From: Clostridium sp.
GTDB taxonomy: Bacteria; Bacillota_I; Bacilli_A; RF39; UBA660
Direction of reading: 5' to 3'
Length of the DNA: 50,554 nt
NCBI GenBank assembly: GCA_023665725.1
Contig: JAMPDH010000005.1
Coordinates: 16,716 to 67,269 of the forward strand
Part shown: piece by piece, positions 9,470 to 20,658 of the stretch
How the letters are laid out: each line of letters begins with the position of its first letter
Numbering within the stretch: position 1 is the first letter of the stretch
Notes under the pieces: model-generated
What the model saw: only the letters and a program-made list of their open reading frames with translations
Databases searched by the model: none
What the model was told of the DNA's origin: nothing
Program-made: the position numbers and the translations under genes

Positions 9470-9958
9470 TTAATTTTCTAAATTTTGACTATGCAAATCT
9501 AAACAAATTGCAAGTTTCTTTACATTTTCCATTAAACCTGCTGCAATCATTGTAAGTAATGTATCTCTTGATGGTATTGACGCAAGTTTATTAAGCATAT
9601 CTATATCAGCAATATTGCCATCTACTATTCCAGCTTTTAATTGTAATGCAGGATGTTTTTTTGCAAAATCGCTTAATACCTTTATAGATGTTATTGTATC
9701 ATTACCGAAAGCTATTGCTCTAGGTCCTTCTAAAAAACCTAAATCTATTTTTAAAGAATCTAACGCTCTCATTGTAAGTGTATTTTTATATACCTTAAAA
9801 TCAGATTCACTTTCACGTAATTTTTTTCTTAACTCATCTGTTTCTTTAACAGTTAAGCCTTGATATTCAAAAAATACAACACTTGAAGAGTTTTTAATCT
9901 TATCACTAATCTCATCAATAATAGTTTGCTTTTTTTCAAGAATTTTCACGTTTGCCAC
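9470..9958 (-). CDS. rplJ: 50S ribosomal protein L10
   Basis: L10 anchors the L7/L12 dimers on the ribosome. About 162 aa with the typical N-terminal KILEKKQTIIDEISDKIKNS and the core VFFEYQGLTVKETDELRKKL; the C-terminal helix that binds L12 is present. The frame opens at a GTG inside the ribosome-binding site GAGGAGGTGG; the next in-frame GTG at 9958, giving (M)ANVKILEKK, is correctly spaced and is the likely start. It is preceded by an L10-binding leader and co-transcribed with rplL. Confidence 0.97.
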   Translation of the reverse strand: MANVKILEKKQTIIDEISDKIKNSSSVVFFEYQGLTVKETDELRKKLRESESDFKVYKNTLTMRALDSLKIDLGFLEGPRAIAFGNDTITSIKVLSDFAKKHPALQLKAGIVDGNIADIDMLNKLASIPSRDTLLTMIAAGLMENVKKLAICLDLHSQNLEN

Positions 9959-9984
9959 TACTTCCACCTCCTCTTTTGTTTTAC

Positions 9985-10090
9985 ATTATAAAAGGTCTTA
10001 CGTAAACATAAGGCCTATTAAAATTTTAGTAAGCCTCGGTAGGAAATATTAAGCAAATAATTTGCTCCTACTGTCTACGGTATAACTTCA
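9985..10090 (-). promoter_or_regulatory. Ribosomal protein L10 leader
   Basis: The rplJ 5'UTR carries the hallmarks of the L10 leader family: CGTAGACAGTAGGAGC, a second arm TTTCCTACCGAGG, then a stem AGGCCTTATG ... CGTAAGACCT (9993-10016) just before the rplJ ribosome-binding site. L10, or L10-(L12)4, is known to bind such leaders and repress its own operon. Confidence 0.8.
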
Positions 10091-10100
10091 AAACGTATTA

Positions 10101-15536: not shown

Positions 15537-15565
15537 AAAAAAAGTGCAAATATATGCGCTTTTTT
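15537..15565 (-). terminator. Terminator of the duplicated lipoprotein gene, copy 1
   Basis: Minus strand AAAAAAGCGCA, loop TATATT, TGCACTTTTTTT. It overlaps the stop codon and is repeated exactly in copy 2 at 17022-17050. Confidence 0.75.
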
Positions 15566-16357
15566 AACTTAAACTATATACTTTTTCACAAGAGTCTACT
15601 TCTTCGATTGAATATCCTATAATATCGCTTAATGATGTATCTAGATTAAATTCTGTTATCATACTATATAATTCTTCATATAAATCATTGTATATCTCTT
15701 CTTCTACGTTATTTGGCATATTTTCTCCATAGATACTATTTACATATCCCCATACTGGTAAATATGCATCACGTACTTCCTCTATTGTTTTTGCAGCTCC
15801 TATTTTTTCATATACCTCATCTAATACTTTATATGTTTCATATTCACTTGAATTTTTTGATACCATATTTGATACATGTATTGCTTTTCCATGTTCATTA
15901 TATTCTTGAGCTGTTTCCTTATCTATTTCTAAAAAAGTTTCATATACATTTTCAAAATACATTGCATCTCTTGTTTTATCTATTGTATTTTGATAATTTT
16001 TTCTTACTAAATCTTCGTCTCCACTTATTACTCCTGTTTCAACTAAAACCCCTTTTAATTCTGAATTTATTACTGTTTTATTAATAGTATATACAAACGC
16101 ACACAATTCTTCTAATGTTACTTCTGTTCCTTCGAACTCTTTTTCTGCTTTTTTTAATATTTCTGCAAGTTCTTTTTCATCAATATATTTTATTGCTGTA
16201 TATTTTTCTAATTCGCTTTCTTCTTTTGTTGTTTCTTCTGGTTTTGTTGTTAAAATTACTGTTTCTTCTGTAACTATTGATGTTGTTTTTTCTACTAATT
16301 CATCGTCTATACTTATTGCTTTTGTATTTTCTAATTCTTCCTTATTTTCTTTTGAAG
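15537..16357. repeat. About 820-bp direct repeat, copy 1
   Basis: This segment is repeated at 17022-17842 at a constant offset of 1485; I saw no mismatch, only one extra C at 15536 at the edge. It encodes residues from about 26 to the end of the first protein plus its terminator. The tRNA pair lies between the copies. Confidence 0.95.
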
Positions 16358-16430
16358 TTGAACAAGCAGTTGAAGTTACAGCTATACTTGCAGCAGTAAG
16401 AGTAGCTAATAATCCTTTTAAATTTTTCAT
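15564..16430 (-). CDS. Lipoprotein, duplicated C-terminal domain (copy 1)
   Basis: 288 aa from the ATG at 16430; the frame extends upstream to a TTG inside the ribosome-binding site GAAGGGGG. The signal peptide ends in a lipobox (TSTAC, Cys23), so the protein is membrane-anchored outside. A short Thr/Glu linker (residues about 45-75) leads to a helical domain of about 210 residues with no family I know. From Ser26 onward it is identical to the C-terminal 264 residues of the protein at 17049-18350; only the anchor differs. Promoter and 5'UTR match those of two neighbouring surface genes. Confidence 0.8.
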   Translation of the reverse strand: MKNLKGLLATLTAASIAVTSTACSTSKENKEELENTKAISIDDELVEKTTSIVTEETVILTTKPEETTKEESELEKYTAIKYIDEKELAEILKKAEKEFEGTEVTLEELCAFVYTINKTVINSELKGVLVETGVISGDEDLVRKNYQNTIDKTRDAMYFENVYETFLEIDKETAQEYNEHGKAIHVSNMVSKNSSEYETYKVLDEVYEKIGAAKTIEEVRDAYLPVWGYVNSIYGENMPNNVEEEIYNDLYEELYSMITEFNLDTSLSDIIGYSIEEVDSCEKVYSLS

Positions 16431-16461
16431 AAATTTTTCCCCCTTCAAATTTATGGCTTGT

Positions 16462-16490
16462 ATAATATCACTTTATCTATGATTTGTCAA
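16462..16490 (-). promoter_or_regulatory. Promoter of lipoprotein copy 1 (shared module)
   Basis: TTGACA (16485-16490), 17 bases, TATTAT (16462-16467), then the leader ACAAGCCATAAATTTGAAGG also found before 18350 and 20599. Confidence 0.8.
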
Positions 16491-16699
16491 GTTTTACAAG
16501 AAAATATGTTATAAATATTTACTTAATCCATATTTTATACTAATTTTGTAAAAAAATAAAACTTTAATGTATGCTTTTATAATAATTATCTATCTATATT
16601 AATAATATATATTAATACAGTTAATTATCAAAAATATTAATCCAATAAATAAACTTTGATATTTTTAATAATATTTTTTAGTATTTTTCAAAAAAAATA

Positions 16700-16728
16700 T
16701 TGCACAAATTTTTTCATTATGTTATTAT
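16700..16728 (+). promoter_or_regulatory. Promoter of the tRNA-Met/tRNA-Leu unit
   Basis: TTGCAC (16700-16705), 17-base spacer, TATTAT (16723-16728), 20 bases before the first tRNA. Confidence 0.7.
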
Positions 16729-16748
16729 ATAATAGCAGTGTTTGAAAT

Positions 16749-16825
16749 GGACCCTTAGCTCAGTTGGTTAGAGCATCCGGCTCATAACCGGGCGGTCGTA
16801 GGTTCGAGTCCTACAGGGTCCACCA
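16749..16825 (+). tRNA. tRNA-Met (anticodon CAT)
   Basis: The 77-nt cloverleaf has acceptor strands GGACCCT and AGGGTCC, D-arm AGCTCAGTTGGTTAGAGC, anticodon stem-loop with CTCATAA, T-arm GGTTCGAGTCC and an encoded CCA end. It reads CAT; elongator Met is likely, though a lysidine-modified Ile tRNA cannot be excluded from sequence alone. Confidence 0.9.
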
Positions 16826-16833
16826 CTGTTGTT

Positions 16834-16918
16834 GCAGGTGTGGCGAAATTGGTAGACGCACTAGCCTTAGGAGCTAGCGCCTCACGGCATGGGGGTTCAA
16901 GTCCCTTCACCTGCACCA
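16834..16918 (+). tRNA. tRNA-Leu (anticodon TAG)
   Basis: 85 nt with acceptor GCAGGTG/CACCTGC, a long variable arm (CGCCTCACGGCATG), anticodon stem CTAGC/GCTAG with loop CTTAGGA, T-arm GGTTCAAGTCC and encoded CCA. It starts 8 bases after tRNA-Met. Confidence 0.95.
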
Positions 16919-16978
16919 AAGTTACTAAAAAGGGCATTGAAATGCAAAATAATGCATGTCACAACCTATTTTAAAATT

Positions 16979-17003
16979 GAGTAGTCCCACTACTCTTTTT
17001 TTC
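16979..17003 (+). terminator. Terminator of the tRNA unit
   Basis: GAGTAGT, loop CCC, ACTACTC followed by TTTTTTT. Confidence 0.9.
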
Positions 17004-17021
17004 ATTTATCTTTATTAAAAG

Positions 17022-17050
17022 AAAAAAAGTGCAAATATATGCGCTTTTTT
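17022..17050 (-). terminator. Terminator of the duplicated gene, copy 2
   Basis: Exact repeat of the 15537-15565 hairpin, overlapping the stop codon. It faces the plus-strand tRNA terminator. Confidence 0.75.
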
Positions 17051-17842
17051 AACTTAAACTATATACTTTTTCACAAGAGTCTACTTCTTCGATTGAATAT
17101 CCTATAATATCGCTTAATGATGTATCTAGATTAAATTCTGTTATCATACTATATAATTCTTCATATAAATCATTGTATATCTCTTCTTCTACGTTATTTG
17201 GCATATTTTCTCCATAGATACTATTTACATATCCCCATACTGGTAAATATGCATCACGTACTTCCTCTATTGTTTTTGCAGCTCCTATTTTTTCATATAC
17301 CTCATCTAATACTTTATATGTTTCATATTCACTTGAATTTTTTGATACCATATTTGATACATGTATTGCTTTTCCATGTTCATTATATTCTTGAGCTGTT
17401 TCCTTATCTATTTCTAAAAAAGTTTCATATACATTTTCAAAATACATTGCATCTCTTGTTTTATCTATTGTATTTTGATAATTTTTTCTTACTAAATCTT
17501 CGTCTCCACTTATTACTCCTGTTTCAACTAAAACCCCTTTTAATTCTGAATTTATTACTGTTTTATTAATAGTATATACAAACGCACACAATTCTTCTAA
17601 TGTTACTTCTGTTCCTTCGAACTCTTTTTCTGCTTTTTTTAATATTTCTGCAAGTTCTTTTTCATCAATATATTTTATTGCTGTATATTTTTCTAATTCG
17701 CTTTCTTCTTTTGTTGTTTCTTCTGGTTTTGTTGTTAAAATTACTGTTTCTTCTGTAACTATTGATGTTGTTTTTTCTACTAATTCATCGTCTATACTTA
17801 TTGCTTTTGTATTTTCTAATTCTTCCTTATTTTCTTTTGAAG
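17022..17842. repeat. About 820-bp direct repeat, copy 2
   Basis: Same orientation and sequence as 15537-16357. Homology stops abruptly inside the codons for SKENKEE, where this copy fuses to a different N-terminal half. Confidence 0.95.
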
Positions 17843-18350
17843 ATTTTGAAAATGCATTTGCACCTGCTATTAAAAATCCAAACACTGCTATACCTATAAC
17901 TGAGTTTCTTATTAATTTCTTTTTTGATTTTTTGGATTTTTCATCATCATCTATATTAGAATTATTACTGCTTTCATCAACTATTATGGTATCCGCATTA
18001 GTATTGTCATTAACATTACTAGTATTAGAAACTTCATCAGTATTATTCTCAACCACGGAATCTGAATTAATAGAAGAATTGTTATCAGAAATATTTGTAG
18101 CTATATTATCTATAGTAACAGGATCAACGCTAGGAGCATCAGGTATTTTATAATCTGGTATAGTTACATTTTCAATATTTTCATAACCTGAATTATTATC
18201 ATTTTGATTTTCCAAATTAACATGCTCAAATTTTTCAGTTTCATCAATTGACTCAACTGATGGCGTAGTGTTTTGATTACTATTAGTTTTTATATATCCA
18301 TTTCTAATAAGATCTCCTAATGACATATTAATATTTTTATTATTTTTCAT
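17049..18350 (-). CDS. Single-pass membrane protein, duplicated C-terminal domain (copy 2)
   Basis: 433 aa. Residues 1-145 are cytoplasmic-looking, Asn/Asp/Ser-rich and low complexity; KSKKSKKKLIRNSVIGIAVF starts one transmembrane helix at about residues 145-165. The remaining 264 residues are identical to the lipoprotein domain at 15564-16430. So the same extracellular domain is shown by two anchors, lipid or transmembrane. The ATG follows AAAGGGGG in the shared leader. The perfect identity, including third codon positions, indicates very recent duplication or gene conversion. Domain function is unknown. Confidence 0.8.
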   Translation of the reverse strand: MKNNKNINMSLGDLIRNGYIKTNSNQNTTPSVESIDETEKFEHVNLENQNDNNSGYENIENVTIPDYKIPDAPSVDPVTIDNIATNISDNNSSINSDSVVENNTDEVSNTSNVNDNTNADTIIVDESSNNSNIDDDEKSKKSKKKLIRNSVIGIAVFGFLIAGANAFSKSSKENKEELENTKAISIDDELVEKTTSIVTEETVILTTKPEETTKEESELEKYTAIKYIDEKELAEILKKAEKEFEGTEVTLEELCAFVYTINKTVINSELKGVLVETGVISGDEDLVRKNYQNTIDKTRDAMYFENVYETFLEIDKETAQEYNEHGKAIHVSNMVSKNSSEYETYKVLDEVYEKIGAAKTIEEVRDAYLPVWGYVNSIYGENMPNNVEEEIYNDLYEELYSMITEFNLDTSLSDIIGYSIEEVDSCEKVYSLS

Positions 18351-18381
18351 AAAATTTTCCCCCTTTAAATTTATGGCTTGT

Positions 18382-18410
18382 ATGTTAACACATTATTATT
18401 AATTTGTCAA
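18382..18410 (-). promoter_or_regulatory. Promoter of copy 2 (shared module)
   Basis: TTGACA (18405-18410), 17 bases, TAACAT (18382-18387), then ACAAGCCATAAATTTAAAGG as in the sister modules. Confidence 0.75.
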
Positions 18411-19060: not shown

Positions 19061-20599
19061 TTATTTTACTACTTTTTTATTTCCAGTTAATACATATCCT
19101 TTTTCTAGTAATGTTTTATCAGTTTTGCTTAAACTCCATTTTGTATCCTTAGTTCCAGATATGAATTCTCTTGTTTGATATCTATAATATGTATATGTTG
19201 TATATACAGGTACAGATTTAACACATTTTGTTCCACTTAACTTATAATCACTATCTGCACAGCTATATGTTACAGTTGGATTTACAATACTATATTCAGT
19301 TGTTGATACATTTCTATAACATGTTGATCCACTTAATGTATATCCTGATGGACATGATGGTGATGCTGTTGATGTAAAAGTTATTCCTAATGATACACAT
19401 TTTCCAGTTGAAGAATCATATGATCCTGATGAACATGATGGTGTTGTAGTTGTTTTATATGTTGGTGAAACTGTTTCTGTTTTAGTAGCTGTTTTAGCGC
19501 TTCTTGTATATATTGCATATGTATATTTATTTGTTGTACAACCTGTTCCACAACTTACATTAAGTGATGAACCAAGAAGTGCATATTTAGTAGTATTACT
19601 TGATGTCTGTCTAGAACTATAAGTAGCTGTTCCTGTTCTAACCCAATCTGTATACTCACCTGTATTATATGAATAAGTACGAGTACATGTTGATCCACTT
19701 AATGTATATCCTGATGGACACACTGGTTCGCTAGTTGTTTTATATGTTGGTGTTGAATAAGATGTTGATGATTTTGTTGTTTTAGTACATTTTGATCCAC
19801 TTAATGTATATCCTGATGGGCATGATAATGATGCAGTTTCTGTTCTACTTGAACTTACAGGTATATAACACTTACCAGATCTTAATTCACCTTGTGTACA
19901 TGTTGTATTTACTTTAGCATCTTTATATACTAATTCTGTTCCTGTTTGAACAGTTGATTTTTTTGTTTCAACTCTTCTATAATCAGTTTGTGTGTAACTA
20001 TTAAGTTCCCACTTTGACCAATCAGACCATTCTCCCCATTTACCATTTGTGATCTTTTCATATTCATATTGGTATTTTACAGTTGTTGTAGGTTTTACTG
20101 TAGTTGGTTTTTTTACAGGTTCTTTCTTTTCACAAACTCCTGATGGGCAATAATTATAACATCCTAGATAAACATCTATATAATCTGTTACATCAGAACA
20201 TGATAACTTAACAGTTAATACATATTCTTTATCCTTTTTAGTAAGTTTTACATAAGATTCTGTTAAACTACAAGAATTATTATTTGTATCCTTCAAATCT
20301 AATACAAGTTTCTTTTCTTGCATTTCTCCTAATGTCATTGTAATTGAATCTCCAACTTTAGAAGGTAATCTATCAGTTGTAAAATAACTAATAGATGCTT
20401 CTTTCATTGTATCAAGATTTTGAGCATATATTTGATTATATAATGGTTGTAACTTATTTGTAAAAGTATCATCCACATAATTCTTTATATAACTCTTTGT
20501 TGGAAATAACCATAATAGTATAAATACTAATAATACCACAACTAATATCTGTAATATTAAGTCCTTAAATGAAAAATTATTCTTTCTTTCTTCGTACAT
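19061..20599 (-). CDS. Membrane-anchored surface protein with Cys-rich repeats
   Basis: 512 aa. One N-terminal transmembrane helix (about residues 13-32) leaves a long exterior part. Residues about 50-160 form a domain with ISYFTTDRLPSKVGDSITMT and GCYNYC. The rest carries at least five short modules of the type CPSGYTLSGSTC, with variants CSSGSYDSSTGKC and CADSDYKLSGTKC, separated by Thr/Ser/Tyr-rich linkers. Each module has two cysteines about 11 apart, suggesting small disulphide loops. The ATG is in the shared promoter/leader module, with a second promoter copy upstream. A surface adhesin or envelope structural role is plausible but unproven. Confidence 0.75.
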   Translation of the reverse strand: MYEERKNNFSFKDLILQILVVVLLVFILLWLFPTKSYIKNYVDDTFTNKLQPLYNQIYAQNLDTMKEASISYFTTDRLPSKVGDSITMTLGEMQEKKLVLDLKDTNNNSCSLTESYVKLTKKDKEYVLTVKLSCSDVTDYIDVYLGCYNYCPSGVCEKKEPVKKPTTVKPTTTVKYQYEYEKITNGKWGEWSDWSKWELNSYTQTDYRRVETKKSTVQTGTELVYKDAKVNTTCTQGELRSGKCYIPVSSSRTETASLSCPSGYTLSGSKCTKTTKSSTSYSTPTYKTTSEPVCPSGYTLSGSTCTRTYSYNTGEYTDWVRTGTATYSSRQTSSNTTKYALLGSSLNVSCGTGCTTNKYTYAIYTRSAKTATKTETVSPTYKTTTTPSCSSGSYDSSTGKCVSLGITFTSTASPSCPSGYTLSGSTCYRNVSTTEYSIVNPTVTYSCADSDYKLSGTKCVKSVPVYTTYTYYRYQTREFISGTKDTKWSLSKTDKTLLEKGYVLTGNKKVVK

Positions 20600-20629
20600 A
20601 TTTTTTCCCCCTTTAAATTTATGGCTTGT

Positions 20630-20658
20630 ATAATATCACTTGTTTTATACTTTGTCAA
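20630..20658 (-). promoter_or_regulatory. Proximal promoter of the Cys-rich surface gene
   Basis: TTGACA (20653-20658), 17 bases, TATTAT (20630-20635), followed by the shared leader ACAAGCCATAAATTTAAAGG. Confidence 0.85.

Follow-up and report, generated by a model that had tools for sequence, protein, structure and literature searches.

Possible gene conversion between two surface-protein genes that share an exact 821-bp tract on either side of a tRNA pair

The repeat, its two genes and the tRNA pair

The stretch of DNA analyzed here (the window; 50,554 nucleotides of contig JAMPDH010000005.1, assembly GCA_023665725.1, Clostridium sp.) is part of a 1.09-Mb draft genome of 29 contigs. In the window, 821 bp are repeated exactly and in the same orientation: positions 15537-16357 (copy A) are identical to positions 17022-17842 (copy B), with an offset of 1485 and a gap of 664 bp. 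These were the only two copies in the whole assembly, and chance was ruled out as the origin of the exact match by its length. The exact duplication around a tRNA pair reported in the initial annotation (there as 820 bp) was confirmed with this correction. Read on the minus strand, each copy contains the final 263 codons of its gene (A or B) with the stop codon, followed by the terminator region; the earlier statement of a shared C-terminal coding sequence and terminator held, with 263 codons plus stop in place of 264 codons. The identity had also been said to end sharply. The base-for-base match does stop at the edges, but these are imperfect, as residual similarity of 8-10 bases between A and B follows a gap of 1 nt past the left edge and of 3 nt past the right edge.

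Gene A (15564-16430, minus strand) encodes a protein of 288 amino acids with an N-terminal lipoprotein-type signal (MKNLKGLLATLTAASIAVTSTAC). The signal region through the lipobox Cys (16362-16430, minus strand) was read directly and has a short basic n-region, a hydrophobic stretch and a Cys with a small residue at -1 (MKNLKGLLATLTAASIAVTSTA followed by the C). The residue at -3 is atypical, being Ser and not the canonical Leu, Val or Ile. Despite this Ser, lipidation of the product is likely, if not assured, and Lgt is encoded in the genome (TIGR00544 above cut-off). Gene B (17049-18350, minus strand) encodes a protein of 433 amino acids, which consists of an acidic, Asn-rich tail of about 148 residues, hydrophilic and expected to be cytoplasmic, a transmembrane (TM) helix predicted from the sequence and from alignment with the TM segments of congeners (amino acids ~149-167; 17850-17906, minus strand), and the same ectodomain as in gene A. 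The N-termini of the two genes differ as had been described, and the proposal of one ectodomain on two kinds of anchor was borne out by the sequence, apart from the atypical lipobox. The cell would be expected to present the ectodomain in two forms, one held by a lipid and the other by a TM anchor that has a cytoplasmic tail.

The ectodomain matched no Pfam or NCBIfam family above cut-off, and nothing credible was found among PDB sequences (best E 0.36). AlphaFold models of three sequences were all helical with a mean pLDDT of 47, too poor for a fold search. A search of 291 genomes of the family placed the ectodomain in three species of one genus only, and as judged from these comparisons it is a genus-restricted orphan, a status that narrows the wider meaning of the case. 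A viral origin was rejected, as no relatives were found in viral contigs. Other weak translated matches, one to a brief segment of a PolC-like DNA polymerase and one to an unrelated 269-aa protein, were judged to be due to chance. In the first of these, the ectodomain motif YGENMPNNVEEEIYNDLY (gene A, 15564-16430) resembles YGDNLPYNIEERIAKELYGD of the PolC-like polymerase in genomes of the same family (L035, L036), with E about 1e-3 per genome; this likeness was likewise taken as chance.

The gap between the copies contains two tRNA genes on the plus strand (16749-16825 and 16834-16918), and behind them a terminator-like hairpin with a T run (16979-17002, plus strand). The copies had been said to flank the only plus-strand genes, which is correct as regards RNA genes, since no others were found on that strand in the window; plus-strand ORFs do exist, and those of at least 100 amino acids are largely antisense to minus-strand ORFs. 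The first tRNA was called Met by ARAGORN from its CAT anticodon. This label, also used in the initial annotation, was not borne out: since the best E. coli match, over the full length (80.5-81.8%), is annotated as tRNA-Ile with anticodon CAT, the gene was assigned to tRNA-Ile2(CAU). The other two CAT tRNAs of the genome look like an initiator (CGCGGAG..., GGGCTCATAACCC) and an elongator. The tRNA-Ile2 reads AUA after the addition of lysidine. The second tRNA is tRNA-Leu(UAG). Each of the two was the only copy of its kind among the 33 tRNAs found in the assembly, a MAG about 95% complete from which second copies could be missing. In 24 ORFs of the window (10,143 codons) ATA was used 478 times (4.7%) and CTN 278 times. 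Because both tRNAs are sole copies and these codons are in use, a cell that lost either of them through crossover of the repeats should not survive. The earlier remark that such recombination would delete the tRNAs was upheld, and the cost would be very high.

Promoters and a shared leader

Genes A and B each have their own promoter of the TTGACA-17-TATTAT type with an extended -10. That of gene A, with a conserved 5'UTR (AAGCCATAAATTTGAAGGGGG), occupies positions 16431-16490 and that of gene B positions 18351-18410 (both minus strand), and the two leaders are identical at 51 of 60 positions. A genome-wide search gave three copies of this leader of about 60 nt (TTGACA...TGnTATTATACAAGCCATAAATTTAAAGGGGGA), all at this locus. 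The third and last (20600-20658, minus strand) stands before the neighboring gene for a 512-aa protein and is identical to that of gene A at 54 of 60 positions. Congeners have retained the leader as well, in front of the ectodomain gene and of the 512/770-aa gene alike. Its core, CCwTAAATTTAwGG, is nearly palindromic, and before the 770-aa gene of one congener (G001) the leader has two additional bases, the palindrome being retained. It is possible that this element is an operator or a regulatory leader. Since the unrelated 512-aa gene also has it, the shared leader alone is no proof of whole-gene paralogy of A and B and counts as weaker evidence for it. The 512-aa protein (19061-20599) is TM-anchored and carries Cys-rich CPSGYTLSGSTC-type repeats. 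In G001 the orthologue has 770 amino acids, so the length of the repeat region varies between species.

The locus in related genomes

The congener records were 'Lapin' (rabbit) MAGs of uncultured Bacilli with SPAdes-style contig names, one genome per species. In each of two congeners (G001 and G002) a single TM-type gene, with a tail and a TM helix, separates cysS from the same tRNA pair, and the ectodomains of the window share 41-46% of their amino acids with those of the congeners. Since the single gene of both congeners lies between cysS and this pair, gene A occupies the old position, as the positional orthologue of that gene (cysS / gene / tRNA-tRNA). Gene B is in the new position, on the far side of the tRNAs, although it has kept the ancestral architecture. 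Upstream of gene A, towards the tRNAs, the DNA was 86% identical to that of G001 over 64 bp and 71% over 138 bp, and the terminator region after the stop codon was recognizable in both copies as well as in G001. The tRNA pair, cysS and a 139-aa gene still lie side by side in several other genera, without the ectodomain gene.

Among 154 TM-like segments, the signal of gene A gave its top score with the TM segment of the G001 orthologue, CSTS being common to both, and in the same comparison the TM segment of gene B showed no resemblance to the gene A signal. Judging from this top score, the lipoprotein signal of gene A may derive from a TM anchor whose N-terminal tail was lost, which hints at how a membrane-spanning protein may become a lipoprotein by such a loss.

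The far side of the tRNA pair differs from species to species (L009:230-1150; L008:10090-11795). In G002 it carries a phage-type integrase. In G001 a GNAT-like ORF and two orphan ORFs stand there, followed by the orthologues of the 139-aa and 512-aa genes of the window, and in the window it is occupied by gene B. By this variation it looks like a site beside tRNAs that is prone to insertion.

Origin of the identical tract

Within the tract, A and B are closer to each other (100% over 821 bp) than to the orthologues in the congeners. The homologous flanks are more diverged, with 74% identity of the upstream regions over about 130 bp and the 51 of 60 positions of the leaders, a comparison to be read with the caveat that the leader also stands before a third gene. 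Against the two congeners, the leader of A was identical at 51 (G001) and 50 of 60 positions and that of B at 48 (G001) and 51. As far as these alignments tell, the divergence between the flanks of A and B is similar to that seen between species. Because they are no closer to each other than either is to other species, the 821-bp tract appears to be younger than the genes around it, which is the pattern expected for a recent conversion of older paralogues. We therefore lean, with modest confidence, towards the view that A and B are older paralogous surface-protein genes which gene conversion has kept identical in their ectodomains. The suggestion of gene conversion between the copies in the initial annotation is supported by the homologous but diverged leaders around the identical tract and by the presence of RecA; MutS is encoded in the genome as well. 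Conversion as the process, its timing and direction, and the origin of the signal from a TM segment are all inferred from one snapshot, a single genome of the species, in which the residual similarity at the edges is short.

The history could have been as follows. An ancestral gene with cytoplasmic tail, TM helix and ectodomain would have been located between cysS and the tRNA-Ile2/tRNA-Leu pair, and a copy with its own promoter and terminator would have arisen across the tRNAs to become gene B. Gene A, at the original site, would later have lost the cytoplasmic tail, after which either the old TM segment or some substitute for it would have come to act as an N-terminal lipoprotein signal. A recent non-reciprocal transfer of 821 bp would then have erased all differences between the ectodomains and between the terminators but left the anchors and leaders diverged. 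The locus would be a compact natural case in which conversion homogenizes a single domain of two genes whose anchoring parts diverge. A swap of domains between anchors had also been proposed; of this, the data bear out homogenization of the ectodomain alone, and no exchange of anchors was seen.

Tandem duplicates normally collapse via RecA-dependent crossing-over. Here a crossover between the repeats would delete the sole tRNA-Ile2 and tRNA-Leu(UAG) genes and probably kill the cell, so that this usual route of loss would be blocked by essential genes in the gap, whereas a non-crossover exchange would be survivable and would homogenize the tract and leave the anchors apart. Since a crossover would delete two sole-copy tRNAs, the duplication would not be lost. 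The bracket thus explains persistence, and this does not in itself demonstrate an adaptive arrangement. Selection had been invoked as holding the arrangement. This stands only in a weak form, namely that a loss through crossover would probably be lethal; the bracket is not necessary for the tRNAs, because the congeners keep one copy beside the same tRNA pair, and it need not have been selected, since they do without it. We consider it very doubtful that the placement around sole-copy tRNAs is a recombination lock, in which collapse is lethal, the pair persists, anchors diverge and conversion homogenizes, of a kind that is selected or recurrent around essential single-copy tRNAs. Direct repeats around an essential gene are also found in S. 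pneumoniae merodiploids, where the interval is gained or lost when the repeats recombine (PMC3784515). Those repeats give large unstable tandem duplications, whereas the interval here is small and present once.

The identity of the tract could be explained by recent capture instead of conversion. In that case an 821-bp segmental duplication would have supplied the ectodomain and terminator of B to a gene that had a lipoprotein signal and the shared leader, or to the leader and signal only, giving a new fusion. The N-terminal coding DNA of A and B shows no convincing homology once the repeat is excluded, which favors such a fusion, and the leader before the non-homologous 512-aa gene indicates that it can be shared without the body of a gene. 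However, gene A is located exactly where the congeners have their ectodomain gene, with matching upstream DNA, its signal resembles the ancestral TM segment, and residual similarity continues past both edges. Capture therefore seems unlikely to us, though still to be weighed seriously.

An effect of assembly would be another source of exact identity, either by collapse of similar ectodomains or mixed-strain variants to one consensus that was written twice, or by joining of two strain arrangements. The genome is a draft of 29 contigs, the contig names of the congener MAGs are SPAdes-style, the 821 bp exceed a typical short-read length, and, by reasoning, a linear chromosome together with a circle would give the same four junctions. 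Against this, the four junctions are distinct with a sensible gene at each, each copy has its own promoter and an intact frame, and the contig continues through both copies, a simple loop having one linear path only. The four distinct junctions speak for the existence of two copies, and we regard this explanation as less probable still than capture. The exactness of the duplication, rather than its existence, may be a consensus effect of the draft assembly, in which case the identity would be slightly overstated.

One of the copies might serve as a store from which ectodomain sequence is recombined into the other, as in antigenic variation. Direct repeats, a surface protein and the possibility of conversion are all present, but each copy has its own promoter and a full frame, a search of the rest of the genome gave no further cassettes, and the copies are identical rather than diverse, which makes such a system extremely unlikely.

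Concerted gene pairs are known in many prokaryotes (PMC6053082). The closest parallel is tufA/tufB of Salmonella and many other bacteria, where two copies are likewise kept identical by non-reciprocal conversion (PMC5485169, PMC6053082); in Salmonella this occurs at about 2e-8 per cell per generation with mismatch repair and 2e-5 without it, at one tested position (PMC5485169). In contrast to tuf, a conserved housekeeping gene that is near-identical over its whole length, the gene here is an orphan at the level of the genus, its copies are 664 bp apart, and only ectodomain and terminator are shared while the anchors differ. The tandem pair PE_PGRS17/PE_PGRS18 of M. tuberculosis also consists of neighboring duplicates with evidence of gene conversion (PMC1762029). 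There, converted and unconverted states were seen across many strains, whereas the present comparison has a single strain, and the two N-terminal anchors are of different kinds.

Two further features were observed elsewhere in the window. At its edge (1-210) there are two tandem copies of 105 nt that are 90% alike. A ribosomal protein L10 leader (Rfam RF00557) lies on the minus strand at 9979-10098, just upstream of a minus-strand ORF at 9470-9967, and is ordinary.
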